Assembly: GCA_001941045.1 (NCBI GenBank)
Contig: MSHD01000062.1
Span: 1-45,757 of the forward strand
DNA length: 45,757 bases
Source: Lachnospiraceae bacterium Zagget2
GTDB taxonomy: Bacteria > Bacillota > Clostridia > Lachnospirales > Lachnospiraceae
Direction: 5' to 3'
Positions 13,395-44,720 of the stretch are shown piece by piece. The stretch's first letter is position 1. Every line of letters starts with the position of its first letter. Position numbers and translations under genes: made by a program. The notes below the pieces were generated by a model. The model was given only the letters and a program-made list of their open reading frames with translations. It searched no databases and had not been told where the DNA came from.

Positions 13395-13404
13395 GGAGGA
13401 AGAC

Positions 13405-15030
13405 GTGGCAAAGCTGAGTATCATGGACAGGCTCTATACTGCCATAGCGCCGGGAAGGGCGGCAAAGTCCGCCGAGGCAAGAGCGAAGACGGCGGCTGCC
13501 AGGGCGGCAGAGTCTTTTATTAACAGTGGATACGGGAACTATGGCGCAAACCAGACAAAGAAGAGTATGCGAGGCTGGGAGTATTACGGCGGCAGCGCGA
13601 AGGAGGACATCGAGGACAACATTGACGTCCTGCGCCAGAGGAGCCGCGATGCCTACATGGGGATACCAACGGCCAGCGCAGCGCTCAAAACCCTGCGCAC
13701 CAATGTGGTCGCCGGGGGACTGATGCCTGCGCCGCAGCTCGATGCGGAGTTTCTGGGGCTGACAGACGATCAGACCGAAGTTCTCCAGACGCAGATCCTC
13801 CGCGAGTTTTCGCTGTGGGCAGATACTCCGGTATGTGATGCGGAGCGGATCGACAATTTCTACAAGCTCCAGCAGCTCGCTTTCCTGAGTTACCTGATGA
13901 ACGGGGATGCGATCGCGCTGCTGCCATTGCGGGAGCAGGCGGGGCAGCCATATTCCCTGCGGGTGCAGATTGTTGAAGCGGACAGGGTATGCAGTCCGGA
14001 TCTCTATGACAGGCTGGTGCCTTGCGAGGTAAACGGGTACTCTGTGCAGCAGATCGTCCAGGGCGTCGAGACAGACGCGGACGGCATGGTGGTGGCTTAC
14101 TGGATTTGCAACCGGCATCCGCTCGCAAATGATGCGACGATTCAGCCGGGAAAGATGGAGTGGGTACGGGTCGAGGCATACAGCGCCTTAAGTGGTCGCA
14201 GAAATGTGCTGCATGTGATGAACCGGGAAAGAGCAGGGCAGAGACGGGGTGTCCCCATCCTTGCGCCGGTACTGGAAGCGATCAAGCAGCTCGGACGGTA
14301 TACAGACGCTGAGATCACGGCGGCGGTGCTGTCCGCTATGTTCACGGTATTCGTGAAACCAGAGAGCGCAACGGACGGCAGACCGTTTGGAGAAATGCTG
14401 CCGCCGGACATGCTCCTGGACGCGCAGGATCAGAGCAGCATTGAACTGGGGCCGGGCGCGATCGTTGGGCTGAATGCCGGGGAGGATGTGCAGTTTGCAG
14501 ATCCAAAACACCCAAATACCGGCTACGACGCGTTCACAAATGCCCTGATTAAGCAGATCGGGGCGGCGTTGGAGATTCCGCCGGAAGTACTGCTCAAACA
14601 GTTCTCAACGAGCTACAGCGCGGCGAGAGGAGCTTTAAACGAGTTCTGGAGAAGCTGCGCGATGCAGCGGGACTGGTTCACGGATGATTTCTGCCAGCCC
14701 ATCTATGAGGCATGGTTTGCAGAAGCGGTGGCGAGAGGCCGGATCAGCGCTCCGCATTTCTTTGACGATCCGGTGATCCGGAAAGCCTACACTTCCTGCA
14801 CCTGGAACGGACCGGCGAGGACGAACCTTAATCCGGTGCAGGAGGTGAACGCAGCGGTGGCGAGGGTGGATGCAGGATTCAGTACCGCCCAGGAGGAAAC
14901 CGCATCTATGACCGGCGGGGATTATAACCGGAATATCCGGCAGCGGGTCATGGAAGCGAAGCGGAAACGCGAGGTGGACGAGATCAAGAACACAGTACAG
15001 GAAACAGCCGGAAGAGCGAAGGAGGAGTAA
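13405..15030 (+). CDS. Portal protein, lambda gpB family
   Basis: GTG start at 13405 with GGGAGG upstream; 541 aa, close to lambda gpB (533 aa). Characteristic stretches are 'RSRDAYMGIPTASAALKTLR' early, 'NGDAIALLP' and 'VQIVEADRVCSP' in the middle, and 'QIGAALEIPPEVLLKQFS' followed by 'SYSAARGAL' towards the end. The dodecameric portal is the DNA gate in the head and the docking site for terminase. The stop is followed two bases later by the GTG of the protease gene. Confidence 0.9.
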   Translation: MAKLSIMDRLYTAIAPGRAAKSAEARAKTAAARAAESFINSGYGNYGANQTKKSMRGWEYYGGSAKEDIEDNIDVLRQRSRDAYMGIPTASAALKTLRTNVVAGGLMPAPQLDAEFLGLTDDQTEVLQTQILREFSLWADTPVCDAERIDNFYKLQQLAFLSYLMNGDAIALLPLREQAGQPYSLRVQIVEADRVCSPDLYDRLVPCEVNGYSVQQIVQGVETDADGMVVAYWICNRHPLANDATIQPGKMEWVRVEAYSALSGRRNVLHVMNRERAGQRRGVPILAPVLEAIKQLGRYTDAEITAAVLSAMFTVFVKPESATDGRPFGEMLPPDMLLDAQDQSSIELGPGAIVGLNAGEDVQFADPKHPNTGYDAFTNALIKQIGAALEIPPEVLLKQFSTSYSAARGALNEFWRSCAMQRDWFTDDFCQPIYEAWFAEAVARGRISAPHFFDDPVIRKAYTSCTWNGPARTNLNPVQEVNAAVARVDAGFSTAQEETASMTGGDYNRNIRQRVMEAKRKREVDEIKNTVQETAGRAKEE

Positions 15031-30371: not shown

Positions 30372-30995
30372 ATGGCAGCAGTGTATAAATCCGTATTGAC
30401 GCAGAAGGGCCTGAACCTGATCGCAAAAGCAGAGGCGGGAGATACCGGGATAAAATTTACGCGACTTGTGACCGGGGACGGGGAGTATGACGGCACAGAA
30501 GATCTGACGGAATTTACGGAGATGAAATCAGTAAAGCAGGAAACTGCATTTACCGGGAAGGAATATGTCGAGGACGCGACCGTGGTCCTGACGGCAATCG
30601 TAACGAATCTGGATCTGGAGGAAGGGTATTATATCCGGGAGATCGGAATTTTTGCAGAGGATCCTGACGAAGGAGAAATTCTGTACTCCATATCACGTCC
30701 TGTAGGTGATATTTATGACTATCTGCCGGACAGCAGCAATGGGCAGGTATCCATCCAGCTTGAGGCAGACACAGGGATTTCAGGGTCGGATTCAGTCACG
30801 GTCAACATGAAGGGCGCGCTTGCACTCCAGGCAGATCTGGAAGAGGTGCAGGAAGAGGTGAATGAAATTCTGGCGGGGATGCTTTCGGTCAGTTATGATG
30901 AAGAGAAAAAAGCGCTGGTTTTCTCTATAGGGGATCTTGAGTCGTTAAAGAGTACGCTGGCCTCGCTGACCGACATTGACGAGGAGGCGGAGTGA
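30372..30995 (+). CDS. Tail fibre N-terminal (DUF3751-like) protein, 207 aa
   Basis: ATG at 30372 with GGGAGGACG upstream. 'YKSVLTQKGLNLIAKAEAG' and 'KFTRLVTGDG' near the start, then 'EEGYYIREIGIFAEDP', are the conserved features of phage tail-collar/fibre attachment domains (DUF3751/P2 gpH N-terminus). The C-terminus is a coiled coil ('LEEVQEEVNEIL') followed by a short acidic tail. With no receptor-binding part of its own, it probably acts as an adaptor for the following fibre-like proteins. Confidence 0.8.
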   Translation: MAAVYKSVLTQKGLNLIAKAEAGDTGIKFTRLVTGDGEYDGTEDLTEFTEMKSVKQETAFTGKEYVEDATVVLTAIVTNLDLEEGYYIREIGIFAEDPDEGEILYSISRPVGDIYDYLPDSSNGQVSIQLEADTGISGSDSVTVNMKGALALQADLEEVQEEVNEILAGMLSVSYDEEKKALVFSIGDLESLKSTLASLTDIDEEAE

Positions 30996-32317
30996 TGGCG
31001 ACACTAAGGGATTATATTGCGGCGCTGATACGTGACCGGGATGACCTCGCAGCGAATCTGAAGGAGATGGGCGTGGAGGCGGATGCGAGCGAAAAGTTTC
31101 CCTCGTTAGTCGAAAAAGTTTTAGATATTGAAACTGGCGGGGCTTTATCTGATATTACAGTACAATCGGGACAGAGCACGTTTACAGAGACGCCTGCGGA
31201 CGGATACTATGGCATCGGCTCTGTCACGGTGCAGGGTGACGAAAATCTGGTTGAGGGCAATATTAAGCTTGGTACGGATATTCTTGGAGTAACAGGCACT
31301 TATGCTCCGCGTTTACAGACGAAGACGAAAAGCATATCATCTGCCGGGACATACAGTATCAGCCCAGACAGCAGTTATGACGGGCTGGCAAAAGCTACCG
31401 TTACCGTCACAATGCCATTACAGGAAAAATCAGTCTCATACACCGAAAACGGTGAGTACACCATATCTCCAGACAGCGGATACAGTGGAATGACTGAAGT
31501 AGGCGTTACTGTCGATGTGCCAACCGAGGTAATACTACAATCAAAATCAGTTACGCCGGGGGCGAGCTCACAAACAGTAAAGCCTGATGATGATTATAAT
31601 GGATTATCATCTGTGGCTGTAGACGGGGATAGTGATCTGATCGCTGAAAACATCCGTTATGGAGTATCTGTCTTTGGTGTGGAAGGTACGTATAACGAGA
31701 TTCTTTTGCAGGAAAAATCCGTCACACCGTCAACTTCTGCTCAAACGGTTAAAGCTGATAGTGGTTATGACGGCCTGTCACAGGTGACAGTTGAAGGGGC
31801 AGATGACCTGATAGCATCTAATATCCGTGAAGGTGTAACCATTTATGGCGTAGAAGGTTCTTATTCATCAGGGACAACCTATCAATCCAAAACTGTAACG
31901 CCAACTAAAAACAGTCAAACGGTTACAGCTGATAGTGGATATAATGCACTGGCCAAAGTCGTGGTAGACGGGGATAGCAATCTTATAGCAGGTAATATTG
32001 CAAAAGGTGTTTCTATATTCGGAATAACAGGAACCTATTCACCAGAACCCGCATTGCAAGAATTGACTGTTATTCCGAGTGTGTCTGCACAATACATCAC
32101 GCCTGGTGACGGGTATGATGGTTTTTCATCTGTCACTGTAGAGGCTGGGGAGGCCAGCGGAGATTATACAGAAGGCTATGCTGATGGAGCAGCGAGCAGG
32201 GATGATGAAGTTGCGGACTTAGAAGATCAAATAGCGAATTTAGAGGCGCAGCTTACGGAGTTAAAAGCTCAAGTTGATGAACTGGCAGCCTTTGTTGATC
32301 TTGAGGAGGAAGAATGA
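30995..32317 (+). CDS. Repeat-rich tail fibre-like protein with N-terminal docking module, 440 aa
   Basis: ATG at 30995 overlaps the previous stop; GTG 30992 is also possible. Residues 1-45 ('YIAALIRDRDDLAANLKEMGVEA') are shared with the next protein. Residues about 185-385 carry nearly four copies of a unit of roughly 57 residues built as 'KSVTP..SSQTV..D..Y.GL..V.V.G...LI..NI..GV.(V/I)(F/Y)GV.GTY'. The C-terminus is a predicted coiled coil ('LEDQIANLEAQLTELKAQV'). I infer a fibrous tail appendage whose repeats can expand or contract by recombination. Confidence 0.75.
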   Translation: MATLRDYIAALIRDRDDLAANLKEMGVEADASEKFPSLVEKVLDIETGGALSDITVQSGQSTFTETPADGYYGIGSVTVQGDENLVEGNIKLGTDILGVTGTYAPRLQTKTKSISSAGTYSISPDSSYDGLAKATVTVTMPLQEKSVSYTENGEYTISPDSGYSGMTEVGVTVDVPTEVILQSKSVTPGASSQTVKPDDDYNGLSSVAVDGDSDLIAENIRYGVSVFGVEGTYNEILLQEKSVTPSTSAQTVKADSGYDGLSQVTVEGADDLIASNIREGVTIYGVEGSYSSGTTYQSKTVTPTKNSQTVTADSGYNALAKVVVDGDSNLIAGNIAKGVSIFGITGTYSPEPALQELTVIPSVSAQYITPGDGYDGFSSVTVEAGEASGDYTEGYADGAASRDDEVADLEDQIANLEAQLTELKAQVDELAAFVDLEEEE

Positions 32318-32318
32318 A

Positions 32319-32909
32319 ATGGCGGAATTAAGTGAATATATTGCAGCGCTGGCACGTGACCGAGATGCATTAGTAGCAAACTTAGGCGAGATGGGCGTGG
32401 AGGCAAACAGTGATGAAACGTTTACAAGCCTGGTATTGAAGGTTCTACAGATCAGCGGAGGAGAGGAGGAAGCAGAGATGGTAACACTGGACATGGCGGA
32501 GCTGGGGGTGACATTTGGGACGACCGGTCAGATCGCTGTGGATACGAGCATTACGGAGGCGCTGGTCGAGGCCGCAGCGAACAAGGCAGCGGTCTATGTA
32601 GATGGGACGTATTCGTCTATTCCGTTCACGATGCAGCTGACACTTGCAGGAGGGTCGGAGGCTCTGGGTACTTATCTATTCGGAGGCCTGACAATGGTCA
32701 GCCTGGATGCAGAGTCTGTACAGATGGTGTATATCATCCTCATGCTGGTGCCATCGGCTTCCGCGCTGGTTGTGCTATCCGGGCTTTATACCCCATCAAG
32801 CTCAGGGTCAGATACGACATTCGTGACTGTGACGCAGGACGAGCTGGAGAGTGCCGACCTGTCGCAGTATGACGAGGGCACTATACTTCTGGTGGAGGTG
32901 ACAGACTAA
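32319..32909 (+). CDS. Tail fibre-associated protein, paralogous N-terminus, 196 aa
   Basis: ATG at 32319 with GAGGAGGAAG upstream, right after the previous stop. Residues 1-47 (YIAALARDRDALVANLGEMGVEA) copy the N-terminus of the preceding protein almost residue for residue, so both probably dock on the same tail partner. The rest is beta-rich without a known motif. The stop overlaps the ATG of the Hint-domain gene. Confidence 0.65.
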   Translation: MAELSEYIAALARDRDALVANLGEMGVEANSDETFTSLVLKVLQISGGEEEAEMVTLDMAELGVTFGTTGQIAVDTSITEALVEAAANKAAVYVDGTYSSIPFTMQLTLAGGSEALGTYLFGGLTMVSLDAESVQMVYIILMLVPSASALVVLSGLYTPSSSGSDTTFVTVTQDELESADLSQYDEGTILLVEVTD

Positions 32910-34711
32910 TGGTCCGATATGAGATCGACGGCACAGGCCTGATGCAGGAGGGCGTGTCCGGCAGGTCCATGTATAAGGTGTCCGGCGGGGAGGCGAAGAA
33001 GCTGTCCCCCTGCGTGGTTTCCAATGGCGAGGCAAAGAGATGCCTTGCCATCTGCATCGATGGGGATACGGCCAGCGTTTATTACACGAAAGTATCGTTA
33101 GTAAAGGGGTATTATTACACCGTCAGCGGGGAGGCTTATCCGGTTGGAGTAAGGGTTCGGTTATCATCCGTATCAGATATAAGCAATTTTACTATCTCGG
33201 ATTTGGAAGCAGGCGCTCTTTATGCTACGAAATCAGGCGACGATGGGACGTACAGTATTGAAAATGTGGAAGGTACTGGAGAGACGCTGGTCGCATGGAT
33301 ACAGCATTCCGCTCAAACGTATGCGGACGTGGCCACATACAGCTTGACAGCTTCTGTAGAGGCAACGAGCGCGGTTACCTACGTGACGTCTAAGGCGATC
33401 GGCGAATCATCATATGTGGAATGCGGTATCTGCGGAGGCACCGGGACAGAGGCGTGTAGTTATTGTGGCGGAACGGGGACATACACATATACAATGTCTG
33501 AGACGTATGACGTTAATGAAGCCTGTACCGAGTGTGGCGGGAGCGGAACCATATCGGAGAGCTGTTCGACCTGCGGGGGAAGCGGTTCAGAGACCTGCCA
33601 TGACTGTTGGGGTTCCGGTGAAGTGGAATCCGGCACAGATGAAGAAGGAAACACAATATATGAGACCTGCCCAAATTGTGGAGGAAGCGGTACGATTACC
33701 TGTACCAACTGCGGTGGAAGCGGAAGCATTGACAACGGCTGTCCGAGCTGCGGCGGGGTAGGCACTACAACCCATACTGAATATCAGGACGTGGAATATG
33801 AAGAGTCTTGTCCATCGTGTGGAGGACAAGGATCCTGGGCGTGCTCATCCTGTGGTGGCAATGGTTATACCGATCAAATAATTTTAGCGGACTATGAAGC
33901 CCTGGCATTTGTCGTGACTGGTAAATGCAACGCCGGGACGGAGATCATCTATGTCAGCACAAATTCGTCGAACCTGGTTAATACTGTGAAAGCAAGTGCA
34001 ACGCCGGATGAGGACGGTTCTTATACGCTTGGATTTACCGGCGATTATGACATCACCTATTATATCTGGTACGAGGCGGAGGATGGAATTCTGACCACGC
34101 ACACGACATATAGCGTAGTTGATATCAGCGTATGCCTCTCTGGTGATACGCTGATTATGATGGCGGACGGTACGCAGAAGCGGTTGGAGGACATCCGGGA
34201 GGGCGCCCGGCTGCGGTCAGGTGACGGAACTGAAACCACAGTCACGCGTATCTCGGAGCGGGGACATTTCCGACCCGGGCACATTCTGTATACCTTTGAA
34301 GACGGGACAATCATCAATGAGGTGCATGAGCATCGTTTCTACAATGTGGAGCAGGGTTTCTGGCAAAAGTTGATGAACTGGGAGATCGGGGAACACGCCC
34401 GCCGGGAAGACGGCGCAGAGGTCGCACTGGTATCGGTAGAGATGATCGAGGATGAGCCGACAGAGATGTTCGGTTTATGGACGGAAAGCGGAAGCTACTT
34501 TGCGAACGGTCTGCTGTCCGGGGACGCGTCAGCGAACCAGCCGCTCCTTACGGATGCCACGGCGGAGCAGGCTGCGGATATGGCGCTGTCCATCGGGGGG
34601 CGGGAAATCATGGAATTATTGGGATTGGAGGAGATGTTGATACATGAAAAGGTTAGTGATACTGGCGGACGAAAGTGTACTTGCGGGATGTGCCAGGAGC
34701 GGCGTTGCTGA
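32909..34711 (+). CDS. Tail-region protein with ten CXXCXGXG motifs and a C-terminal Hint domain
   Basis: ATG at 32909 overlaps the previous stop; 600 aa. Residues 1-165 are a beta-rich domain. From Cys172 to about 319 there are ten CXXCXGXG-type motifs (CGICGGTG, CTECGGSG, CPNCGGSG and others), the zinc-binding unit of DnaJ, where only four occur. Residues about 409-537 form a Hint (hedgehog/intein) domain: Cys409 in CLSGDTLI, the histidines of NEVHEHRF (473, 475) and the closing YFANGLLSG (Asn533). Hint domains rearrange to a thioester at the first Cys and can cleave or transfer the upstream part. The last 23 residues overlap the next gene. By position it is a virion or tail-associated protein (inference). 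Confidence 0.8.
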   Translation: MVRYEIDGTGLMQEGVSGRSMYKVSGGEAKKLSPCVVSNGEAKRCLAICIDGDTASVYYTKVSLVKGYYYTVSGEAYPVGVRVRLSSVSDISNFTISDLEAGALYATKSGDDGTYSIENVEGTGETLVAWIQHSAQTYADVATYSLTASVEATSAVTYVTSKAIGESSYVECGICGGTGTEACSYCGGTGTYTYTMSETYDVNEACTECGGSGTISESCSTCGGSGSETCHDCWGSGEVESGTDEEGNTIYETCPNCGGSGTITCTNCGGSGSIDNGCPSCGGVGTTTHTEYQDVEYEESCPSCGGQGSWACSSCGGNGYTDQIILADYEALAFVVTGKCNAGTEIIYVSTNSSNLVNTVKASATPDEDGSYTLGFTGDYDITYYIWYEAEDGILTTHTTYSVVDISVCLSGDTLIMMADGTQKRLEDIREGARLRSGDGTETTVTRISERGHFRPGHILYTFEDGTIINEVHEHRFYNVEQGFWQKLMNWEIGEHARREDGAEVALVSVEMIEDEPTEMFGLWTESGSYFANGLLSGDASANQPLLTDATAEQAADMALSIGGREIMELLGLEEMLIHEKVSDTGGRKCTCGMCQERRC

Positions 34712-35795
34712 GGTGGCTGATTCTCTGGCGAATGCAATGACCGGAGATTGTGAGGTATCTGTGGTCTGTCCGAACGGAAACGAGAAATTTCTGCAATTTT
34801 CAGGGAATCTGCGTCAGTATACGGAAGGTGTACGCACCTGCCGCCTGTTCGCGGTAACTTACTATGCAGTGTCGAGGAAAATCTGGCCTGATAGAGCCAT
34901 GGAACTGGTAGACGAGCTTGCACCGGATATATTTCACAACTTCGCCGCGTCTGAGCTTTTAAGTCAGCTCACCACGCGTCCGGCACGGTGTATTTACACG
35001 ATCGACCAGAAAGATTTTGTGAAGGACAAGGCGGAGGCGCTAAGTGCCTACGATGCGGTCACGACGGTCTCGGAGGCCTACGCGCAAGAGATACTGGACG
35101 GAGGTGACGAACTGGCGGAGACGCTGGCGGGGATGGATTTTCGGGGAATCACAAATGGCATCCTGACGCCGATATTTGCCCCAGAAAAGGGCCTGCTGGT
35201 GTCAGCAAAGTATAGCGCAAAGAATCTGTCCGGGAAAGCCATATGTAAAGCGCGTCTGCAAACCACCTATGGTATTGGGGATGTGTGCATCTACCTCATG
35301 ATGTGCCGTCTGGTGCGTGATAAGGGTTTGGACGCAGTGATCGAGAGTGCGCACGCTATCCGTGACAGTGGAGGGTTCCTGCTGATTGTAGGAAAGGGCG
35401 ATGCTGAGTACGAGGAAAAGCTTCACGCCCTGACACGGGATGACGGTGTGCTGTGGCTCGACAAGTGGGCGAGCGCTTTACAGTCAATCCCGATGCTGTC
35501 CGGCGCGGATTTCTACTTGTCTCCATCCGTAACGGAGCCCTGCGGCCTTATGCCAATGCACGCGGCGCGCTTTGGCTGTATTCCCATCGTGACGCTGAGC
35601 GGGGGCCTGAAGGACAACTTTGACAGCGAGGTCGCCGTGATTGTTGGTGAAGATGGCATGGAGACAGCGATCACCGAGGCAGCAGAGCTGTATGCGGATA
35701 AGGATACGTTGACTGCGAAGCGGGTAGCATGTATGGACAGGGATTTTTCGTGGGCTACCAGAAAGGCCGGGTATCTGGAGGTATATGACTTATGA
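34644..35795 (+). CDS. Phage-borne glycosyltransferase, glycogen-synthase-like (GT-B fold)
   Basis: ATG at 34644 with GGAGGAG upstream, 68 bases inside the end of the Hint gene; 383 aa. The N-terminus 'SGVAEVADSLANAM' matches the GlgA 'KTGGLADV' loop, but Arg replaces the nucleotide-sugar-binding Lys. 'CRLVRDKGLDAVIES' keeps the Arg and Lys that bind the diphosphate, and 'SVTEPCGLMPMHAARFG' followed by 'SGGLKD' matches the catalytic C-terminal site of GT5 enzymes. It should transfer a sugar from a nucleotide sugar; acceptor unknown. It is shorter than GlgA (about 480 aa). The stop overlaps the prenyltransferase start, so the two are translationally coupled. Confidence 0.8.
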   Translation: MKRLVILADESVLAGCARSGVAEVADSLANAMTGDCEVSVVCPNGNEKFLQFSGNLRQYTEGVRTCRLFAVTYYAVSRKIWPDRAMELVDELAPDIFHNFAASELLSQLTTRPARCIYTIDQKDFVKDKAEALSAYDAVTTVSEAYAQEILDGGDELAETLAGMDFRGITNGILTPIFAPEKGLLVSAKYSAKNLSGKAICKARLQTTYGIGDVCIYLMMCRLVRDKGLDAVIESAHAIRDSGGFLLIVGKGDAEYEEKLHALTRDDGVLWLDKWASALQSIPMLSGADFYLSPSVTEPCGLMPMHAARFGCIPIVTLSGGLKDNFDSEVAVIVGEDGMETAITEAAELYADKDTLTAKRVACMDRDFSWATRKAGYLEVYDL

Positions 35796-36439
35796 AGCAT
35801 CTGGCGATTATTGCGGATGGAAATCGCCGGTGGGCGAAAGAAAATGATCTGCCCGTGGAGACCGGGTATCCGGCAGGACTGGCTACGATCGAGCGGATCT
35901 GTGAATGGGCGATTGCCCGGCAGGTGGAATACCTTACTGTGTACTGCTTCAGTACAGAGAACTGGTCCCGCCCGCAGGAGCAGGTGGACGCGATCATGGA
36001 GCTGGCAAGATGGTGTTTTTCGGGACGTCGGGACTGGTACATAGCCAGAGGTATCCAGGTGCGATTTGCTGGCCGACGTGACCGGTTGGCAGCAGACATC
36101 GCGGACAGTATGAATGTTATGGAGCAGGAAACGCAGAGTGGAAGAAACCTGACGATGACGATTTGCATGGACTACGGTGGACGAGACGAGATCGTCAGGG
36201 CTATACAAAAAGGGGCGCGGACGGAAAAGGAAATCACATGGATGCTCACCCATGGGATCCCGGATCCGGACACCATCCTGCGGACAGGCGGACATCAACG
36301 GCTGTCTAACTTTATGCTGTGGCAATGCGCGTACAGCGAGCTGTATTTCACAGATACGCTGTTTCCAGCGCTGGAAGATGAAGAACTGGACAGTGTGCTT
36401 GCACAGTACGAAATGGTTGAACAACACTATGGCTGCTGA
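35792..36439 (+). CDS. cis-Prenyltransferase (UppS homologue) in a prophage late operon
   Basis: ATG at 35792 overlaps the glycosyltransferase stop; 215 aa (E. coli UppS 253). Diagnostic motifs: 'IIADGNRRWAK' with catalytic Asp9, 'YCFSTENWSRP', 'CMDYGGRDEI', and 'RTGGHQRLSNFMLWQCAYSELYF', which keeps the two Arg, Ser and Glu of the isopentenyl-diphosphate and metal site. Two changes stand out: Tyr26 replaces the conserved His of the GHxxG motif (His43 in E. coli) and His replaces Glu198. The family makes undecaprenyl diphosphate, the carrier for wall glycans. Activity may be retained, altered in chain length, or lost. A terminator follows. Confidence 0.88.
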   Translation: MKHLAIIADGNRRWAKENDLPVETGYPAGLATIERICEWAIARQVEYLTVYCFSTENWSRPQEQVDAIMELARWCFSGRRDWYIARGIQVRFAGRRDRLAADIADSMNVMEQETQSGRNLTMTICMDYGGRDEIVRAIQKGARTEKEITWMLTHGIPDPDTILRTGGHQRLSNFMLWQCAYSELYFTDTLFPALEDEELDSVLAQYEMVEQHYGC

Positions 36440-36441
36440 GG

Positions 36442-36466
36442 TCGACCGGGGAATCGGTCGATTTTT
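36442..36466 (+). terminator. Intrinsic terminator after the prenyltransferase gene
   Basis: TCGACCG pairs with CGGTCGA around GGGAAT, followed by five T. It closes the Hint-glycosyltransferase-prenyltransferase block as a unit. Confidence 0.8.
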
Positions 36467-36482
36467 CTGAAGGGAGGTAAAA

Positions 36483-37223
36483 ATGTCAGAAGTATCGAAT
36501 CTGATTATAAATAATACTACATACGAGATATGTGATGAAGAAACAAGAAATGCGGTCGGCGGTGATGCGTTTTCCGAGGATGTGTATTACTATGCGGGGG
36601 ATTATTGTATTCAGGATAATCAGATGTATAAGTTTACAGTTGACCATCCGGAGGGACCGTGGATTGGGGAGAAGGTTACGACGACGACCACGGATGAAGA
36701 GACTGGGGAGGAGGTTACAACGGAAGAGGCTGGAGTTGTGGAAGCAGTATCAATCATGAGCGAGCTTGCTTCATTAAATGGGAATCTGACTGCCGAAGAC
36801 AGCACGGCATTCCGATTCGGCGTTGATGATGGAAAGTATGGCTACTACACCACTGATGAGGCAGGTGCTGATACATTCAACCCTTTTAGCAATATTACAA
36901 GCCTTAGTAATCTTACTTTGCTAGCAACGCTAACGGGCGATGGGACGGTAAAATGTACTGGAATAACTGGCTACAAATCGCTGACAAAAAATAATTTTAT
37001 CGTAATGGTTACAGGAGGAGCTTCAGGATCATCATCCAGTTCATATGCATATTACGGCACAACCGCAGCTGCTGGATTTACCGTAAGCAAATCTTATTCG
37101 GCGAGTTCGGGCACTCTTACTGTCTCCGGACTAACTCAATCCGTTTATCAGTTAACGAGTGATGGCGGGTCTACCTGTTCTTTTACGCAGAAGATGACTG
37201 CAAAAATATATCTGATTTCATGA
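36483..37223 (+). CDS. Tail fibre/receptor-binding-like protein, 246 aa
   Basis: ATG at 36483 with AGGGAGGTAAAA upstream. The N-terminus 'LIINNTTYEICDEETRNAV' and the following 'DVYYYAGDYCIQDNQMYKFTVDHPEGPW' (in parts) are frequent in Firmicutes phage fibre proteins (carbohydrate-binding 'YYAGDYVIYNG' type). The C-terminal 100 residues are Ser/Thr/Gly/Tyr-rich beta sequence, typical of a variable receptor-binding tip. The GC content falls noticeably from here to about 38170. Confidence 0.6.
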   Translation: MSEVSNLIINNTTYEICDEETRNAVGGDAFSEDVYYYAGDYCIQDNQMYKFTVDHPEGPWIGEKVTTTTTDEETGEEVTTEEAGVVEAVSIMSELASLNGNLTAEDSTAFRFGVDDGKYGYYTTDEAGADTFNPFSNITSLSNLTLLATLTGDGTVKCTGITGYKSLTKNNFIVMVTGGASGSSSSSYAYYGTTAAAGFTVSKSYSASSGTLTVSGLTQSVYQLTSDGGSTCSFTQKMTAKIYLIS

Positions 37224-37240
37224 CATAATGGAGGAAAATT

Positions 37241-38173
37241 TTGGATAAAAAATATCGTTTCGAGGTGCCGTATAATTTCGCTGATGATTATATTGAAACA
37301 ATGAAGCCTTACTTAGAAAATATATGTATTGTTATGGTACAGGCTTTGAATGCTGACTGTACCAACTCGCGGGAAGAAATGCTAAAGAAGCGAAATGCTT
37401 ATGTTCCAACCACATGGGAAGATTATGCATCACATATTCATCGTTTAACGGTTGCCGGGTTCCCTGTGGGAATTTTATTCCAGGAGGATAAAGTTTTCGA
37501 GGCCGAAGTAATTGAACGGTATGTGGATTTAGGCATCTGTGCAGTGATTACCATCTCGGATAGTTTGGCGCAGTATATTAAATTACATCATCCGCATATC
37601 ACTACTATTTGTTCTATAACAAAAACTTTGACCTTCCGCGATTATTTTGAAAAAGACTTAAGCATGTATGATGAATCCGTACTCGATTTCCCATTTGAAA
37701 GAGGTTTGAGCGCTATTCAAGCATTGCCGAAAACAATGGAATATAACATTATTGTGAATAATGGTACGTGCCGTTATGACTGCCCATATAAAAAATTACA
37801 TTGGTTCGATTTTGAAAAATTTGTGGAATCTCATGCAGGCGAAGGGTTTTGTAAATTGCCGGAATATAACTTTATGAGCAAACAGTGTGAACCGTTTATG
37901 ATATTTTATCAGCAGGATTTGCGATATTTTGACCCGTACATTCATTCATTTAAGTTACAAGGACGGGAATACACAACTCAGGAAATAGTCGCAAATTTCC
38001 TGTATTTTCTTAAAGATGACTATCCTTTGATTCATACTCGTGCTTACTTCGACGATGCTATTCGTACAGGTCATCTACAAATGAATTTTGATAACCATCA
38101 GTATACATCAATAGCAGCCGATACCGAAGACTGTTTCGATGGCGCAATCAAAATAGGATGCCTTAGAATGTAA
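37241..38173 (+). CDS. U32-peptidase-like protein, AT-rich, probably acquired
   Basis: TTG start at 37241 with GGAGG seven bases upstream; 310 aa. It follows the U32/COG0826-like TIM-barrel pattern: 'SDSLAQYIKLHHPHI' and 'ICSITKTLTF', strand 'VLDFPFERGLSAIQAL', then 'NIIVNNGTCRYDCPYKKLHW' with the CxxxCP pair, and 'DLRYFDPYIHSFKLQGREYTT'. In U32 relatives these cysteines and others bind an Fe-S cluster or metal. Base composition is clearly more AT-rich than the phage genes on either side. Function in a prophage is unknown. Confidence 0.65.
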   Translation: MDKKYRFEVPYNFADDYIETMKPYLENICIVMVQALNADCTNSREEMLKKRNAYVPTTWEDYASHIHRLTVAGFPVGILFQEDKVFEAEVIERYVDLGICAVITISDSLAQYIKLHHPHITTICSITKTLTFRDYFEKDLSMYDESVLDFPFERGLSAIQALPKTMEYNIIVNNGTCRYDCPYKKLHWFDFEKFVESHAGEGFCKLPEYNFMSKQCEPFMIFYQQDLRYFDPYIHSFKLQGREYTTQEIVANFLYFLKDDYPLIHTRAYFDDAIRTGHLQMNFDNHQYTSIAADTEDCFDGAIKIGCLRM

Positions 38174-38199
38174 AACCAACGACAAAGGGAGGTGAGGAA

Positions 38200-38661
38200 A
38201 TGGAGACTCCGGTAAACCACTGGGAGCACACGGAATTAGAGAAACTGATGGACGCGAAATTTGAGGGCTTGCAGGCAGAGGACAAGCGTCTTAACGAGCG
38301 GTTGAAAATCGTGGAGCAGCAGAGCAAGCAGATTATGGATATGACTGTGACCATGAAGGAACAGACCGCAAACATCGAAACGCTGGCGAAGAACATGGAG
38401 AGCATTTGTCGTATCCAGGAGGCCGAAGGGAAGCGGCTCCAGGAACTGGAGAATGGCCGCATTGCCGACGATGAGATCATAGACATGCTGAAAAAGCAGG
38501 ATGAACGGATCAAGGCGATCGAGACAGAGGACTTTGAAAAATATAAGTCCACCAAAAAGCAGGTGCGCACCACTGTTATCACGGCGGCTGTAACGGCAAT
38601 CGTAACAGCCCTGCTAAGCGCTGGCGTCACTCTCGCCGTCACCATGGCCAATATGATGTGA
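38200..38661 (+). CDS. XhlA-like membrane-anchored coiled-coil lysis protein, 153 aa
   Basis: ATG at 38200 with GGGAGGTGAGG upstream. Residues 15-115 form a long coiled coil ('KIVEQQSKQIMDMTVTMKEQTANI', in part). One transmembrane helix lies at the very end ('TTVITAAVTAIVTALLSAGVTLAV'). This is the layout of haemolysin XhlA proteins, which assist holins in Firmicutes prophages such as PBSX. It opens the lysis cassette. Confidence 0.75.
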   Translation: METPVNHWEHTELEKLMDAKFEGLQAEDKRLNERLKIVEQQSKQIMDMTVTMKEQTANIETLAKNMESICRIQEAEGKRLQELENGRIADDEIIDMLKKQDERIKAIETEDFEKYKSTKKQVRTTVITAAVTAIVTALLSAGVTLAVTMANMM

Positions 38662-38674
38662 AAGAAGGGCGCGC

Positions 38675-39142
38675 ATGGGAAACAGGAATACAGGAAGGGC
38701 AGAGGAAAAAAGGTTCCAGTACTCAAAGATCATTGTCTTTGTGAGTGGAGCCATTTTTATTGCCACGCTGTTCTTCTGCCTGACAAGGGATTACAGCAGT
38801 ATATATGATGCATCCCTGCATGTGGCGGCGGTCACTGTGACAGGCGGCGTTTTCGGCTCAGCGATCGTCTGGTATGAGAAAAAGGCCCAGGCGGAGAATA
38901 TATCCAAAATGCAGCTGCAGCATGTAAAGGACGTCGCCGAAATCGAGTTTAACATCTACGAGCGCAAAGTGAGACTACAGAAAGAACTCGGCATTCTCGG
39001 AAAACCGGACATCGGCATGGATGACGAGGGCATGATGCATGTAGATGAACAGCTCGGCGAAGCGATCAGTAAAGATCAGAATTATCTGGATGCACGGATG
39101 GACGACAGCACGTCGGAGCCAGAAATACAGGCATACGGCTAA
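38675..39142 (+). CDS. Two-span membrane protein of the lysis cassette, 155 aa
   Basis: ATG at 38675. Residues about 18-36 ('KIIVFVSGAIFIATLFFCL') and 48-66 ('LHVAAVTVTGGVFGSAIVWY') are membrane helices with a short loop between. The rest is a charged cytoplasmic helix and an acidic tail. Its place between XhlA and the holin suggests a holin partner, antiholin or superinfection-exclusion protein; no family is recognised. Confidence 0.6.
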   Translation: MGNRNTGRAEEKRFQYSKIIVFVSGAIFIATLFFCLTRDYSSIYDASLHVAAVTVTGGVFGSAIVWYEKKAQAENISKMQLQHVKDVAEIEFNIYERKVRLQKELGILGKPDIGMDDEGMMHVDEQLGEAISKDQNYLDARMDDSTSEPEIQAYG

Positions 39143-39164
39143 GAAGCCGGGAAAGGAGAACAAT

Positions 39165-39476
39165 ATGAGTTATGAAGTGTTTTTAACAGCGTTGTTACTG
39201 GTGTCAGTGCTCACATCACTGACTGTCCAGGCAGTCAAGAGCTGGCTGACTGAACAGGGAAAGGCGTATCACGCAAACGCGCTGGCCGGATACATATCGG
39301 TCATTCTGTCTGTCGTGGTAGGGGCAGCCTATACCATCATCACAGGGGCGGCCTTGAATGCCAGGATGATAGTGATCCTGATCGCGCTTATATTTTTGTC
39401 CTGGTTATGCGCGATGCTGGGATACGACAAGGTGGTACAGTCACTCGCACAATTTCAGGTGAAGGAGGTTGAATAA
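39165..39476 (+). CDS. Holin
   Basis: ATG at 39165 with AAAGGAGAAC upstream; the frame extends further 5' but without a site. 103 aa with three hydrophobic segments ('VFLTALLLVSVLTSLTV', 'LAGYISVILSVVVGAAY', 'MIVILIALIFLSWLCAML') and a short charged tail. Size, topology and position just before the endolysin fit a holin that permeabilises the membrane to release it. Confidence 0.75.
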   Translation: MSYEVFLTALLLVSVLTSLTVQAVKSWLTEQGKAYHANALAGYISVILSVVVGAAYTIITGAALNARMIVILIALIFLSWLCAMLGYDKVVQSLAQFQVKEVE

Positions 39477-39477
39477 T

Positions 39478-40326
39478 ATGGCAACGAGCACAACGGAAAA
39501 AACAATCTGGAGCTACCTCATGGGGAAGATCGGCAATGCTTATGGCGTGGCCGGGTTGATGGGAAACCTCTATGCAGAGTCGGGGCTGTCATCGAACAAC
39601 CTCCAGAACTCAGGCAACACGAAACTGGGGCTGACGGATGCAGAGTACACGGCGCAGGTCGACGCCGGAACCTACACCAAGTTCGCAACGGATTCTATCG
39701 GTTACGGGCTGGCACAGTGGACATATAAGACCAGGAAAAAGGCGCTCAAGGAATACGCTGACGCGCAGAAAGCCTCCATCGGGGATCTGGAGATGCAGCT
39801 CGGCTTCCTGTACAAGGAACTGTCCGGCTCCTATTCCGCGGTCCTGAAAGTACTGAAAAGCGCCACTACTGTGCTGGAAGCGTCCAACGCGGTGCTGACT
39901 GGATATGAGAAGCCCGCGAATCAGGGAACCAGTGTCCAGACGGCGCGCGCGAAGTATGGGCAGAAATATTACGATGCCTATGCCGGGAGCAGCACGTCAA
40001 GCGCATCTGCTTCCACGACGAGCACGAGCAGCGGGACAAGCTCCGCCAGTTCATCTTCCACCACGACCAAGAAAGCGACGGAGGCGGCGAAGAAATTCCT
40101 TAAATCGCTGGCCGGGACATACAAGGCTACGGCCAATCTGAATGTGAGGAATGGAGCCGGGACGGACAAGACCTATATGGTCACGATTCCGAAAGGAACC
40201 GAGGTGAAGAACTACGGTTATTACACCCTGGTAGGGACTACAAAGTGGCTCTACATTCAGTTCACGTATAAGAATGTGGAGTACACCGGGTTTTCATCCG
40301 AAAAGTATCTGGAAAAAACAAAATAA
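39478..40326 (+). CDS. Endolysin with tail-lysozyme-like domain and SH3b domain
   Basis: ATG at 39478 is preferred (AAGGAGG seven bases upstream); a TTG at 39469 is in frame. 282 aa. The N-terminal 165 residues resemble the phage tail lysozyme domain: 'GVAGLMGNLYAESGL' with Glu34 as likely general acid, 'GYGLAQWTYKTRKKAL', and 'DLEMQLGFLYKEL'. A Ser/Thr/Ala linker follows, then an SH3b cell-wall-binding domain ('LNVRNGAGTDKTYMVTIPKG ... GFSSEKYL'). It cleaves peptidoglycan at the end of infection. A terminator follows. Confidence 0.85.
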   Translation: MATSTTEKTIWSYLMGKIGNAYGVAGLMGNLYAESGLSSNNLQNSGNTKLGLTDAEYTAQVDAGTYTKFATDSIGYGLAQWTYKTRKKALKEYADAQKASIGDLEMQLGFLYKELSGSYSAVLKVLKSATTVLEASNAVLTGYEKPANQGTSVQTARAKYGQKYYDAYAGSSTSSASASTTSTSSGTSSASSSSTTTKKATEAAKKFLKSLAGTYKATANLNVRNGAGTDKTYMVTIPKGTEVKNYGYYTLVGTTKWLYIQFTYKNVEYTGFSSEKYLEKTK

Positions 40327-40522: not shown

Positions 40523-41581
40523 TTGCGCACCTTTAAACACTTAACGAAGACCGACCGGCTGCGGATTGAGAAGTGGCTGAACGAGGGATTGAAACCGACA
40601 GAGATTGCCGGGAAATTGCGGGTAGACAGATCCACGATATACCGCGAACTGCAAAAAGGAAAGTACGAGCGCCTGGATGGCGATACCTGGGAAATGAAAA
40701 CGGCTTATAGTCCGGACATCGCGGAAGAGAAGTACCAGGCAAACCTGCGGGCGAAGGGACCGGATCTGAAAATCGGGAATGATCAGGATTATGCAGATTA
40801 TCTGGAGAAGACCATGATCGAGAAAGACTGCAGTCCGGCTGCCGCGCTGGCTCTGGCGGAGCAGGAAGACTTCGAGACAAAGGTTTCCATACCAACACTT
40901 TACAGCTACATCGAGAAGGGCGTATTCCTGAATCTAACGCAGAAAGAGCTGCCAAGGCACGGGAAGCATAAGGGGAAGTATAAGAGTGTCACCAAAAAGA
41001 AAGTCGCTTCCCGCGCACCAGCGGGGGAGAGCATCGAGAAGCGACCGGAAGAGATAAACAACCGCGAGGAGTTCGGACACTGGGAGGGAGATACTGTTTA
41101 CAGCGGAAAGAATAAAAGTACGGAAGCTCTGTTTACGATGACGGAGCGCAAGACGCGGGAAGAGATTATCATAAAAGTGCCAGATCGGAAAGCGGGGACT
41201 ATTGTGAAAGTGATTGACGCACTAGAGCGCGAGTGGGGCGCTGTAAACTTCCGGGCGGTGTTTAAGAGTATCACCTTTGATAACGGATCAGAGTTTGCAG
41301 CAGTCGAGCAGCTGGAGAAGTCCTGTATCAATAAGACAATACCACGCACAAAGATATACTTCGCCCATCCATACAGCAGTTGGGAGAGAGGGAGCAATGA
41401 GAATAACAACGGGATGATCCGGCGGAAGCATCCGAAGGGGACGAACTTTAAAAAGGTGAGCAAGAAGGAGATTGCAGCCACCGAGGACTGGATGAACCAT
41501 TATCCGCGGCGGATACTGGGGTATAAGAGCAGCCATGCATTTTTCAAGGAGTGCCTGGAAGAACTGGGGATAGCGGCATAG
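40523..41581 (+). CDS. IS30-family transposase at the right end of the prophage
   Basis: TTG at 40523 with GAGAGGAGG nine bases upstream; 352 aa, normal for the family. The N-terminal HTH_38 domain is intact ('HLTKTDRLRIEKWLNEG' and 'VDRSTIYRELQKGKY'). The DDE core is intact: Asp in 'GHWEGDTVYS', Asp in 'ITFDNGSEFAAV', and Glu in 'ERGSNENNNGMIRRKHPKGT'. An IS30-like end occurs 130 bp downstream, but I find no matching inverted end in the 200 bp upstream. It may be a decayed or one-ended IS, or the phage's own recombinase standing where an integrase often stands. Confidence 0.9.
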   Translation: MRTFKHLTKTDRLRIEKWLNEGLKPTEIAGKLRVDRSTIYRELQKGKYERLDGDTWEMKTAYSPDIAEEKYQANLRAKGPDLKIGNDQDYADYLEKTMIEKDCSPAAALALAEQEDFETKVSIPTLYSYIEKGVFLNLTQKELPRHGKHKGKYKSVTKKKVASRAPAGESIEKRPEEINNREEFGHWEGDTVYSGKNKSTEALFTMTERKTREEIIIKVPDRKAGTIVKVIDALEREWGAVNFRAVFKSITFDNGSEFAAVEQLEKSCINKTIPRTKIYFAHPYSSWERGSNENNNGMIRRKHPKGTNFKKVSKKEIAATEDWMNHYPRRILGYKSSHAFFKECLEELGIAA

Positions 41582-41791: not shown

Positions 41792-41812
41792 GAAAGATAA
41801 GAACAAAATATT

Positions 41813-42029
41813 GCTGGATGACGGATTTTGGAGAGACCGCGGAGCTTCATTTCACGCGGAGCCGAAGGGGCAGTTGCAGGTAAACTCTCAGGCAAAAGGA
41901 CAGGATCTCGACAGCTCTCCGGAAAGTTCTTCAGTGAACACCGAAGAAGTAATTCCGCAGATGAGCGGGACAATCTTTCAGGTACCAGGACGGGGTGCGC
42001 CGATGAAAAGGCGTGCGCCGTCTTTTTTG
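41813..42029 (+). ncRNA. Tandem glycine riboswitch with terminator platform
   Basis: The first aptamer shows the glycine-riboswitch core: GGAGAGACC (41830), GCCGAAGGGGCA (41860) and CTCTCAGGCAAAAGGACAG (41885). The second is more divergent: CTCCGGAAAG, ACCGAAGAAG and CTTTCAGGTACCAGGAC (about 41914-41992). It ends in a terminator hairpin. In known cases glycine binding to such tandem aptamers prevents termination and switches on glycine cleavage genes, so excess glycine is degraded. That fits the genes immediately downstream. Confidence 0.92.
41989..42029 (+). terminator. Riboswitch expression-platform terminator
   Basis: GTGCGCC pairs with GGCGTGC around GATGAAAA, extended by ACGG/CCGT, then TCTTTTTTG. 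Folding of this hairpin should compete with the second aptamer's closing stem. Confidence 0.75.
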
Positions 42030-42068
42030 TCGGGTTGTTCTAATCTGATGAAACGGAGGAGGGTTATT

Positions 42069-44720
42069 TTGAGCGAACTGAAACAAACAGTACTTCATGA
42101 TGTCCATGTGGAGCTCGGCGCAAAGATGGTGGACTTCGGCGGCTGGGATATGCCGATCCAGTATCCCTGCGGCATCGTGGAGGAGCATCTGGCGACACGG
42201 CAGGGCTGCGGGATCTTCGACGTCTCCCACATGGGGAGACTTGTCATCAGCGGACCGCAGATGGTGGAATTCCTGCAGCATGTGCTGAGCAGCAATGTGG
42301 AGGCGCTGGAGCTGAATCAGGCGCAGTACTGCATCATCCCGAACGAGACCGGCGGCGCGGTCGACGACGCGTATCTCTACCGGTATGAGGAGGGCAATTA
42401 TTTCCTTGTAATCAATGCCGCCAACATTGACAAGGACAAGGCGCATCTGTTCTCATATGCGAAGGACTATGACGTCACGATCGAGGATGTCAGTGATAAG
42501 ACTGCTTCGATCTCTATCCAGGGACCGAAGTCCAAGGAGATTCTGATCTCCATGCTGGGCGGACAGCAGCCGACCGAGGATCCGAGCAAGAACGCGCTGG
42601 CCACGACGGAAATTGACGGCATCCCGGTGCGCATCGCGAAGACCGGCTACACCGGCGAGCCGCTGGGCTATGAGATTTTCGTCGCCTCGGAAAAGGCGGG
42701 ATATTTCTGGAAGAAGCTGATGGATATGGGCGCGCATCCCGCTGCGCTTGGCGCGCGTGATACGCTGCGGCTGGAGGCCGCGTTGCCGCTCTACGGCCAT
42801 GAGATGGGCATTAATAAATATGGGGAAGATATTCCGATCTTCTCTGTGCCGCTGGCTAAGTTCGCGGTTTCCTTCGCGGAGAATAAGGGAGATTTCGTTG
42901 GCAGGAAGCCGCTTCAGAAGCAGGCTGCCGCGTTCCGCCGTATCCTGAACCGCGACTTTGCGGCCTGTGTGGATCTGCCTTACCGCATCCGTCCGATCGC
43001 ACTGCTCGAAAAGGGCGTGCTGCGCGCCGGTTTCCCGGTCTATCGGGATGGAGAAGAGGTCGGCTATGTGACCTCCGGCACGATGGTTCCCTATTTCAAT
43101 ACAGAAGGCGAGGGCATGGCGACGGAGATTCTGGACGAGATGTCCAGGCGCTCGATCGGCCTTGCCTACCTGAAAAGCGATCTGATCAATGACGACCATG
43201 TGCAGATCGATGTGCGAGGAAAGAAGCTTGACGCGGTTGTCGTGCCTTATCATATGCGCACCGACGCGCCGCCCTTCGCCAGACCCATCCTGTGGCAGCC
43301 GGAGGAGGAAGAGGAGCTGCATGTCAGCGACGACTACGCTGCGAAGGCCGCCGCACTGCTGAAGAAAGCCGCGGGCAATCAGGTCTGGAGGCAGAGTGAG
43401 TGCGTGAACCTGATTCCTTCGGAGATGACGGCATCGCCCGCCGTGCATGCGCTGTGCGCCTCGGATCCGAGCAACCGCTACGCGGAGCACAAGAAGGTGC
43501 GCGCTTTCTATGACAGCGAGGTCTTCTATTATCAGGGGACGAAATTCATCGAGGAGGTCGAGTGCCTGCTGGTGGATGAGATGCGCAAATATCTGGGCTG
43601 CACGGAGGTTGAGACCCGCGTGACCTCGGGCCAGATGGCGAATACTGCCGTGTTCTCTGCGCTGATGGATTTCAAAAACCGCGTCGACCGCAAGGTGACG
43701 CCGAAGCGCCTCGGCTATATTATGAACAACCATATTATCCGCGGCGGGCATCTGTCCGCGCAGCCGATGGGGGCGCTGCACGACTATATTGCCGTCGATC
43801 CGGTGACGGAGAAACCGGCGCTGGTGAATTTCCCGGTGTGTGCGGACAATCCCTACAAGATCGACGTGGAGGCCGCGAAGGAGCTGCTGCTGCGCTACCG
43901 TCCGGAGCTGATCATTTTCGGAAAATCCATGGTTCTGCATAAGGAGCCGGTGGCCGAGATCCGGAAATTTGTGGACGAGCAGGGCATTCAGACGACGATC
44001 ATGTACGATATGGCGCATGTCCTTGGCCTGGTGGGCGATCATTTCCAGAAGCCCTTTGAAGAGGGCGCGGAGATCGTCACCGGTTCGACGCACAAGACCT
44101 TCTTCGGACCGCAGCGCGGCGTGATCGGTACCAACTGGAAGAAGGAAGATCTGAAATACGGTCTGTGGGAGACCATCGAGACCCGTGCGTTCCCGGGCAG
44201 TGTCTCCAACCATCATCTCGGCACGCAGCTCGGCATGCTGATGGCCGCCTACGAGATGAATGCGTTCAGGGATGCGTATCAGAGCGCGGTCGTTCACAAT
44301 GCGAAGTACTTTGCGAAATGCCTGAAGGAGGCCGGCATGGACGTGGCCGGTGATCCCGCGATCGATTATACCGAGACGCATCAGGTCATCACCTCTGTCG
44401 GCTACGGCCAGGGCTACGAGGTCGCCGAGCGCCTGGAGCGGAACAACATTATTGTCAACTATCAGGCTACGCCCGACAACGAGGGCTTCACGGCCTCCGG
44501 CGCGCTGCGCATGGGCGTCTCCGAGATGACGCGCTTCGGTTTCGGCGAGGCAGAATTCAAAAAGCTGGCGGAGCTGATGGCTGACTGTGTCCTGAACGGA
44601 GCGGAAGTAGGAGAAGAGATCAAGAAACTGCGCGCGGGCTTCACCGAGCCGAAATACTGCTTCACCGACGCGCAGATGGAGGGCGCGCTGGGCGCTCTGT
44701 CTGAGAAACTGGGGTTCTGA
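42069..44720 (+). CDS. gcvT-glyA: Bifunctional fusion: GcvT aminomethyltransferase and SHMT (GlyA)
   Basis: TTG at 42069 (MSELKQTVLHDVH) with GGAGGAGGG upstream; the frame is open back through the riboswitch but without sites. About 883 aa. Residues 1 to about 415 are GcvT: 'FDVSHMGRLVISGP', 'GYTGEPLGYEIF', 'LGARDTLRLEAALPLYGHEM' and a C-terminal 'HVQIDVRGKKLDA'. Residues about 430-883 are serine hydroxymethyltransferase-like: 'ECVNLIPSEMTASPAV', 'SNRYAEHKK' and the PLP lysine Lys676 in 'GSTHKTFFGPQRG'. GcvT makes methylene-THF from the aminomethyl group on GcvH; SHMT uses methylene-THF and glycine to make serine. Fusion would couple two glycine to one serine. The THKT context is slightly atypical (GSTHKTFFGP). 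Confidence 0.93.
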   Translation: MSELKQTVLHDVHVELGAKMVDFGGWDMPIQYPCGIVEEHLATRQGCGIFDVSHMGRLVISGPQMVEFLQHVLSSNVEALELNQAQYCIIPNETGGAVDDAYLYRYEEGNYFLVINAANIDKDKAHLFSYAKDYDVTIEDVSDKTASISIQGPKSKEILISMLGGQQPTEDPSKNALATTEIDGIPVRIAKTGYTGEPLGYEIFVASEKAGYFWKKLMDMGAHPAALGARDTLRLEAALPLYGHEMGINKYGEDIPIFSVPLAKFAVSFAENKGDFVGRKPLQKQAAAFRRILNRDFAACVDLPYRIRPIALLEKGVLRAGFPVYRDGEEVGYVTSGTMVPYFNTEGEGMATEILDEMSRRSIGLAYLKSDLINDDHVQIDVRGKKLDAVVVPYHMRTDAPPFARPILWQPEEEEELHVSDDYAAKAAALLKKAAGNQVWRQSECVNLIPSEMTASPAVHALCASDPSNRYAEHKKVRAFYDSEVFYYQGTKFIEEVECLLVDEMRKYLGCTEVETRVTSGQMANTAVFSALMDFKNRVDRKVTPKRLGYIMNNHIIRGGHLSAQPMGALHDYIAVDPVTEKPALVNFPVCADNPYKIDVEAAKELLLRYRPELIIFGKSMVLHKEPVAEIRKFVDEQGIQTTIMYDMAHVLGLVGDHFQKPFEEGAEIVTGSTHKTFFGPQRGVIGTNWKKEDLKYGLWETIETRAFPGSVSNHHLGTQLGMLMAAYEMNAFRDAYQSAVVHNAKYFAKCLKEAGMDVAGDPAIDYTETHQVITSVGYGQGYEVAERLERNNIIVNYQATPDNEGFTASGALRMGVSEMTRFGFGEAEFKKLAELMADCVLNGAEVGEEIKKLRAGFTEPKYCFTDAQMEGALGALSEKLGF

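Follow-up and report, generated by a model that had tools for sequence, protein, structure and literature searches.

What brings a Hint-domain protein, a glycogen synthase-like glycosyltransferase (GT) and a cis-prenyltransferase of the UppS family together, end to start, between the fibre and lysis genes of a phage? We addressed this question for the three genes at 32909..36439 of the window, as we call the 45,757 bases that open a 95,257-base contig of Lachnospiraceae bacterium Zagget2 (G000:C62). A sequence-only reading had described them as a late-operon cassette forming a single system that ends at a terminator; the roles it suggested, in glycosylating or lipidating the virion, remodelling the host wall or altering the receptor, are at present conjecture. 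Open reading frame (ORF) calls bear out its coordinates and the overlaps of 68 and 4 bp (Hint/GT and GT/UppS, respectively), and the domain identities that it gave, Hint with a zinc region, GT5-like and UppS, hold in Pfam and NCBIfam, with the Hint domain scoring over the cut-off in one relative. By comparison with related phages we found that the genes travel as a unit with the end of the fibre-like gene upstream, a pattern that suggests that the parts work together. We favour the reading, to which we give a probability of about 0.42, that the cassette is an exchangeable tail-tip module in a late-type position, with a self-processing protein and modifying enzymes of its own. The part of this reading in which those enzymes modify the tip is tentative, falling a little short of even odds.

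Relatives were sought by pattern-based scans of 2.9 million viral contigs and by one scan of 84,980 genomes. As these scans use short peptide patterns followed by a tblastn check against the first sequence of the query, distant relatives can escape them. In the viral contigs, the Hint-GT-UppS order of the window was found in two other phage lineages only, as locus L003 on G397 (127.7 kb) and locus L005 on G399 (122.9 kb). The window UppS, the GT alignment, the Hint alignment and the UppS alignment all returned the same three viral contigs, which count as two lineages because the third locus, L004, is 100% identical to L005 over the cassette; the window GT alone and the window Hint protein alone led nowhere as queries of this collection. 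The genome scan, made with the GT alignment, added one further locus, L009 on a 23.4-kb contig, which has the upstream gene, the Hint gene and the GT gene, with no UppS gene after the last. Hint and GT genes are thus found in four distinct loci in all, and UppS in three of the four. This form of GT and this clade of UppS were met only alongside the Hint gene in the scans made. The condition named beforehand as refuting a single system, homologues occurring singly in unrelated loci, thus came out mostly in favour of one system, though UppS is not obligatory.

Searches aimed at single components gave matches of other kinds. Among 397 genomes of the family, 384 match the GT alignment at E ≤ 1e-20, the best of them outside the window's own at 137 bits vs 728, and those inspected, going by their listed open frames, have the size of GlgA. 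At E ≤ 1e-50, only the window's own genome (G000) matched among 392 genomes of the order and 391 of the class, two overlapping sets. The Hint core matches 7 of 250 family genomes including G000; the other six score at most 40.6 bits, and the two of these that were inspected, within about 3 kb, have other kinds of Hint protein. In phage records, tblastn with the Hint protein returned 14 records, all terminase and repair genes, and the L003 Hint protein had no match; in plasmids, the Hint search returned one terminase only.

Across the phages the gene order is kept at 35-62% identity, a recurrence beyond chance. By tblastn, the window and G397/G399 share 48/39% identity in the best piece of Hint, 50/49% in GT and 62/58% in UppS; the window and L009 share 88% in the upstream gene, 78 and 87% in two pieces of Hint and 88% in GT. 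When all complete window ORFs of at least 80 residues were compared by tblastn (E ≤ 1e-4) with the whole of G397 and G399 and with 21 kb of L009, the other matches were few. With G397 only, they were a 28% tape-measure stretch and short fibre-repeat pieces, to which antisense shadows of the cassette genes (in G397 and G399) are added; with L009, they were 49 residues from the beginning of the fibre gene 30992-32317, 35 residues of the fibre-like ORF 36483-37223, a 36% XhlA-like stretch and antisense or out-of-frame shadows. Nothing else detectable in this comparison is common to the window phage and G397, G399 or L009 outside the unit. The tails themselves differ: the window has a sheath and a baseplate wedge, L009 minor-tail and Dit-like genes, and G397 a gene of the SPP1-Dit type. 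G397 and G399 are in turn only distantly related, with 34 of 125 G397 ORFs matching, and of these 34, UppS (62%) and GT (55%) show the closest resemblance if one 34-residue match at 59% is set aside; their Hint proteins are 38% identical. In this ORF comparison the window UppS was masked by a longer antisense ORF, and window UppS identities were taken from separate tblastn comparisons. Between the window and L009 the ratio of nonsynonymous to synonymous substitution (dN/dS) is 0.16 for the upstream gene, 0.21 and 0.17 for the two Hint pieces and 0.10 for GT. The unit thus has a common inheritance, has been transferred and is under purifying selection. As L009 lacks UppS, it is better described as a core of upstream fibre tail, Hint and GT with UppS as an accessory. 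What makes us favour an exchangeable tail-tip module is the joint movement, from one unrelated tail to another, of a fibre-end tail, a candidate tip protein and enzymes.

The upstream tail is newly recognised here as a fourth conserved piece. While the body of the upstream gene differs between lineages, its C-terminal ~30 residues can be aligned across the four loci and have S, D, S, G and V invariant in each, and it is at this tail that the L003 and L005 genes have recognisable similarity. The alignment scores were reached by 3 of 2000 shuffles for window-L003 and by none of 2000 for either window-L005 or L003-L005. When three tail queries were ranked against all ORFs of at least 60 residues in the window, L009, G397 and G399, the four best-scoring ORFs were, for each query, the four upstream genes. 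A tail scan of the viral contigs, with matches checked against the L003 tail only, gave 91 pattern hits and returned only the three known contigs, and tblastn of the L003 tail found nothing better, among 50,697 phage records, than 8 records with E values of 2 to 3. The tail was not met outside the four loci in the scans made. We read it as a putative docking site or acceptor.

The protein encoded next belongs to the Hint superfamily by its fold, its N-terminal Cys and its block-B His, and both Cys409 and the block-B His475 are invariant in all four loci. Hom_end_hint scores over the Pfam cut-off in L005 (34.6 vs 32.1 bits) and below it in L003 and in the window (E 8e-4). The domain ends in YFAN[GE][LI]LSG followed by D, A or M in each locus, and after it comes a tail in which A..N..LL..A.AEQA..M..S is invariant in all four. 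We rejected a splicing intein because the C-terminal His-Asn is absent in 4/4 loci; since His-Asn is needed for C-terminal cleavage, N-terminal cleavage without splicing is what these motifs lead us to expect. Low-confidence structural models predict beta-rich domains and a helical tail. At E ≤ 0.001, all 15 PDB chains matched by the core model are inteins or bacterial intein-like (BIL) domains, from few distinct proteins and with low TM-scores, and so are 13 of the 15 matched by the L003 model, again with low TM-scores, the others being reelin and a CBM22 pair. A viral fold search listed many Hint proteins with poor TM-scores, and the model searches support a Hint fold only in a general way.

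The window protein also has CxxCxGxG repeats that take PF00684, the DnaJ zinc domain, over its cut-off. The sequence-only reading had made this zinc region part of the system; we find 10 CxxCxG motifs in the window, 10 in L009, 2 in L005 and 0 in L003, so the repeats are an optional insert and not part of the core. Paired DnaJ motifs bind one zinc each, which the even counts here would fit.

The GT scores over the Pfam cut-offs of PF00534 and PF13692 and narrowly over that of PF08323 (starch synthase; 23.8 vs 22.7 bits, residues 126-161 only). Over its C-terminal two thirds it can be aligned to Agrobacterium GlgA (1rzu), including the donor-site motifs RL...KG and EPCGL-type; RL...KG and E.CGL presumably hold the catalytic residues. 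It differs from GlgA in its size and its shortened N-terminal half, and it lies well under the GlgA equivalog cut-off of TIGR02095 (155.6 vs 328.45 bits, residues 131-382) and, in both the window and L003, below every GlgA cut-off in NCBIfam. A true glycogen synthase was rejected on these scores.

The cis-prenyltransferase is a member of the UppS family by sequence, with 203.5 bits vs a TIGR00055 cut-off of 109.55 and a whole-length match; its best solved relative is 3ugs (225 residues). The enzyme conserves DGNRRW, FSTENW and RTGG, and has GYxxG where the host UppS has GHxxG. As the solved 3ugs also has GY, this change does not argue for a dead enzyme. In a tree of 38 rows, which include 29 UppS sampled across the class, the host UppS and the one from the L009 genome, the UppS of the three cassettes group in a single clade (100/100 support) on a long stem, apart from all of these, so that an origin from the present host was rejected. 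The L009 genome, a metagenome-assembled genome of a Lachnospiraceae bacterium, has one UppS match, which is of housekeeping type, nearly identical to the UppS of the window's host and beside it in the tree. UppS-like genes also occur in the phages Gilgamesh and 6H (shortened in 6H), so a UppS gene in a phage is not in itself a novelty; no Hint or glycosyltransferase is annotated near them in the stretches shown, where many genes are labelled hypothetical. They are the two inspected of 25 phage records that match UppS, most of the others being unannotated and perhaps bacterial DNA. A second family of short cis-prenyltransferases, apart from both UppS and the cassette clade, was seen in some genomes of the class (L096 5059-5718, L097 4536-5186 and L098 3681-4319).

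In the tail-tip module that we favour, the ~30-residue fibre tail probably docks the Hint protein as the next part of the tip. Going by its motifs and fold, the Hint domain would most likely undergo an N-to-S acyl shift that yields a thioester at Cys409, and then release the ~408-residue N-terminal part. The co-transferred GT, a shortened relative of glycogen synthase, would most likely add a sugar to the tip or fibre, for which UppS may supply a polyprenyl carrier or acceptor; as the host has its own UppS, the phage enzyme would be dispensable in this scheme. Docking, cleavage, acceptor and chemistry are all inferred. Several observations weigh against the scheme. Only four distinct loci are known, and L009, with no UppS, counts against any reading in which the phage enzyme is essential, unless the host UppS can stand in. 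The block-B Thr is found only in L003, with Val in the other three loci. AlphaFold models of the Hint protein have low confidence (predicted local distance difference test, pLDDT, 51 and 54), and no PHROG tail family matched this protein. Finally, the window and L003 tails match barely above background, with 43 vs 42 for the next ORF, and the margin is also thin for the window under the L005 query (45 vs 42); because of the thin window-L003 margin, the link between lineages rests mainly on L005, L009 and position.

In the alternative that survives best, GT and UppS act on the host and alter, late in infection, a polyprenyl-linked surface glycan that serves the co-encoded tip as receptor, which would keep progeny from being trapped on debris or let a lysogen exclude rivals. 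We regard this as unlikely, though it keeps an appreciable share of the probability, and we hold its companion proposal, that the Hint protein is the matching receptor binder, to be just as unlikely. In bacteria the carrier for wall glycans is a UppS product, the cassette UppS clears its family cut-off, and for a tip and receptor-altering enzymes to move together would make sense. Phage glycosyltransferases that alter the host wall or serotype are described in an excerpt of PMC10955285. However, a scan of ten ORFs in 30992-40326 (E up to 1) found neither a GtrA-type flippase nor a GT2-type family, the GT resembles the soluble GlgA, and a late-type position fits lysogen conversion less well.

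That the genes are morons, neighbours by history that move with a recombination spot in the fibre and have no joint function, seems improbable. The absence of UppS from L009 would fit, as would the UppS-like genes of Gilgamesh and 6H with neither Hint nor glycosyltransferase annotated around them; but hitch-hiking accounts poorly for an order kept at such low identity across phages with little else in common, or for a GT form and UppS clade met, in the scans made, only with Hint.

About as improbable is a conjugation like that of Hedgehog proteins, in which a prenol or prenyl-linked sugar from UppS and GT would intercept the Hint thioester, so that the tip fragment ends up with a lipid or glycolipid at its C-terminus. 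Hint does have enzymes for lipid and for sugar travelling with it, and a Hint domain with a conserved C-terminal tail and no His-Asn parallels the order of Hint and sterol recognition region described in part of PMC7906309. Yet the product of UppS, from what is known of the family, is a diphosphate and not a free alcohol, L009 manages without UppS, the conserved tail is short (about 40 residues vs 97 in human SHH) and the acceptor is only putative. A bolder form, with a polyprenyl or polyprenyl-sugar acceptor, a virion part bearing a C-terminal glycolipid, docking by the upstream tail and the host UppS in use where the phage's is missing, is a long shot of the same order. Very improbable is a decayed, catalytically dead intein in a fibre gene of which only the N-terminal part matters: His-Asn is absent in 4/4 loci and the block-B Thr replaced in 3/4, but Cys and the block-B His are invariant in 4/4, the Hint piece shows as much constraint as the N-terminal one (dN/dS 0.17 vs 0.21) and only a conserved short tail follows Hint.

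The layout of the cassette is given in Table 1. The TAA of the upstream gene and the ATG of the Hint gene have one base in common, and a GGAGG-type stretch precedes each of the Hint, GT and UppS starts in the window. The terminator at which the genes were said to end is a plausible hairpin followed by T's that overlaps the UppS stop codon; the region as a whole has 10 hairpin-plus-T sites vs 7.7 (standard deviation 2.5) in shuffles, which is no clear enrichment, so a consensus terminator scan alone would not single it out.

Table 1. Features of the cassette in window coordinates.
Feature	Position	Strand	Remarks
Upstream fibre-like gene	32319..32909	+	ORF listed from 32274; ATG 32319 fits L009
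Conserved tail of upstream gene	32811-32906	+	Last 32 residues; alignment in all four loci
Hint protein, 600 aa	32909..34711	+	Beta-rich domain, zinc repeats, second beta-rich domain, Hint, conserved tail (domains predicted)
Ten CxxCxG motifs, DnaJ-type zinc region	33422..33862	+	PF00684 E 1.8e-10; optional insert
Hint domain, Cys409 to Gly538	34133..34522	+	Cys409/His475 invariant; ends YFANGLLSGD without His-Asn
Conserved tail after Hint, about 40 aa	34523..34639	+	Predicted helical; invariant residues in 4/4 loci
GT5/GlgA-like glycosyltransferase (GT), 383 aa	34644..35795	+	Shortened N-terminal half; identity 50% to L003, 50% to L005, 88% to L009
Cis-prenyltransferase (UppS family), 215 aa	35792..36439	+	PF01255 E 6.2e-66; TIGR00055 over cut-off
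Terminator-like hairpin, then T's	36438..36465	+	-15.8 kcal/mol, z -2.9

The cassette comes after fibre-like genes of a contractile-tail phage whose structural region occupies about 10 to 36 kb of the window on the + strand and includes genes for terminase, portal, Clp protease, major head protein, tail sheath, tape measure, baseplate wedge and a Tail_P2_I protein. On its 3' side follow, in order, the fibre-like ORF 36483-37223, ORF 37241-38173, a hemolysin/XhlA-like protein (PHROG E 1.3e-4) and an endolysin. This place between fibre and lysis genes agrees with the late-type position ascribed to the cassette, and by position it would belong to a late operon. ORF 37241-38173 encodes 310 residues, for which Pfam, PHROGs, NCBIfam, PDB sequences and a viral-contig scan gave no match. 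A transposase-like gene (PHROG transposase; 40523-41581) stands between the phage lysis genes and the host glycine-cleavage genes. The latter start at 41,811 with a 969-residue ORF (41811-44720) that has GcvT-like and SHMT-like domains, possibly a fused folate-glycine enzyme of the host. In L009, a gene piece after the endolysin (13212-13868) resembles, by eye, part of a penicillin-binding protein and perhaps marks the site of prophage insertion. G399 has, within its tail region (L005 10729-13830), the gene for a 568-residue protein with a reverse transcriptase gene (RVT_1) behind it, which may belong to a diversity-generating retroelement.

If the favoured reading is right, the cassette is a portable tail-tip unit with its own self-processing, sugar and lipid enzymes, and it would link a change of host range to the chemistry of virion or receptor; it is also small enough for in vitro study of cleavage, docking and the two enzymes. 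Among the top matches by title and abstract opening in the open-licence PMC literature, we found no description of Hint, GT and UppS together in a phage.

Known systems resemble the cassette in part. Self-cleaving C-terminal domains and exchange units of a tip plus a helper are known for phage fibres. Mycobacteriophages have phage glycosyltransferases in common with it, which Freeman et al. (2023) reportedly linked to virion glycosylation; we know of no Hint protein or cis-prenyltransferase in those systems. The phage Hint domains described in excerpts of PMC5259590 and PMC3556154 are inteins of terminases or ribonucleotide reductase. In Hedgehog proteins, as set out in part of PMC7906309, a C-terminal Hint domain with a junction Cys and no splicing is followed by a further region, the sterol recognition region, of 97 residues in human SHH, whereas here no sterol region was found in the roughly 40 residues after Hint. 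B-type BIL domains, according to an excerpt of PMC7765530, have all intein motifs but the C-terminal one and can cleave N-terminally; the cassette protein is like them in its Hint fold, its Cys and block-B His and its lack of the C-terminal motif, but keeps the block-B Thr in one of four loci and is encoded instead in the tail region of a phage, where a conserved tail and then the GT and UppS genes come after the Hint domain.

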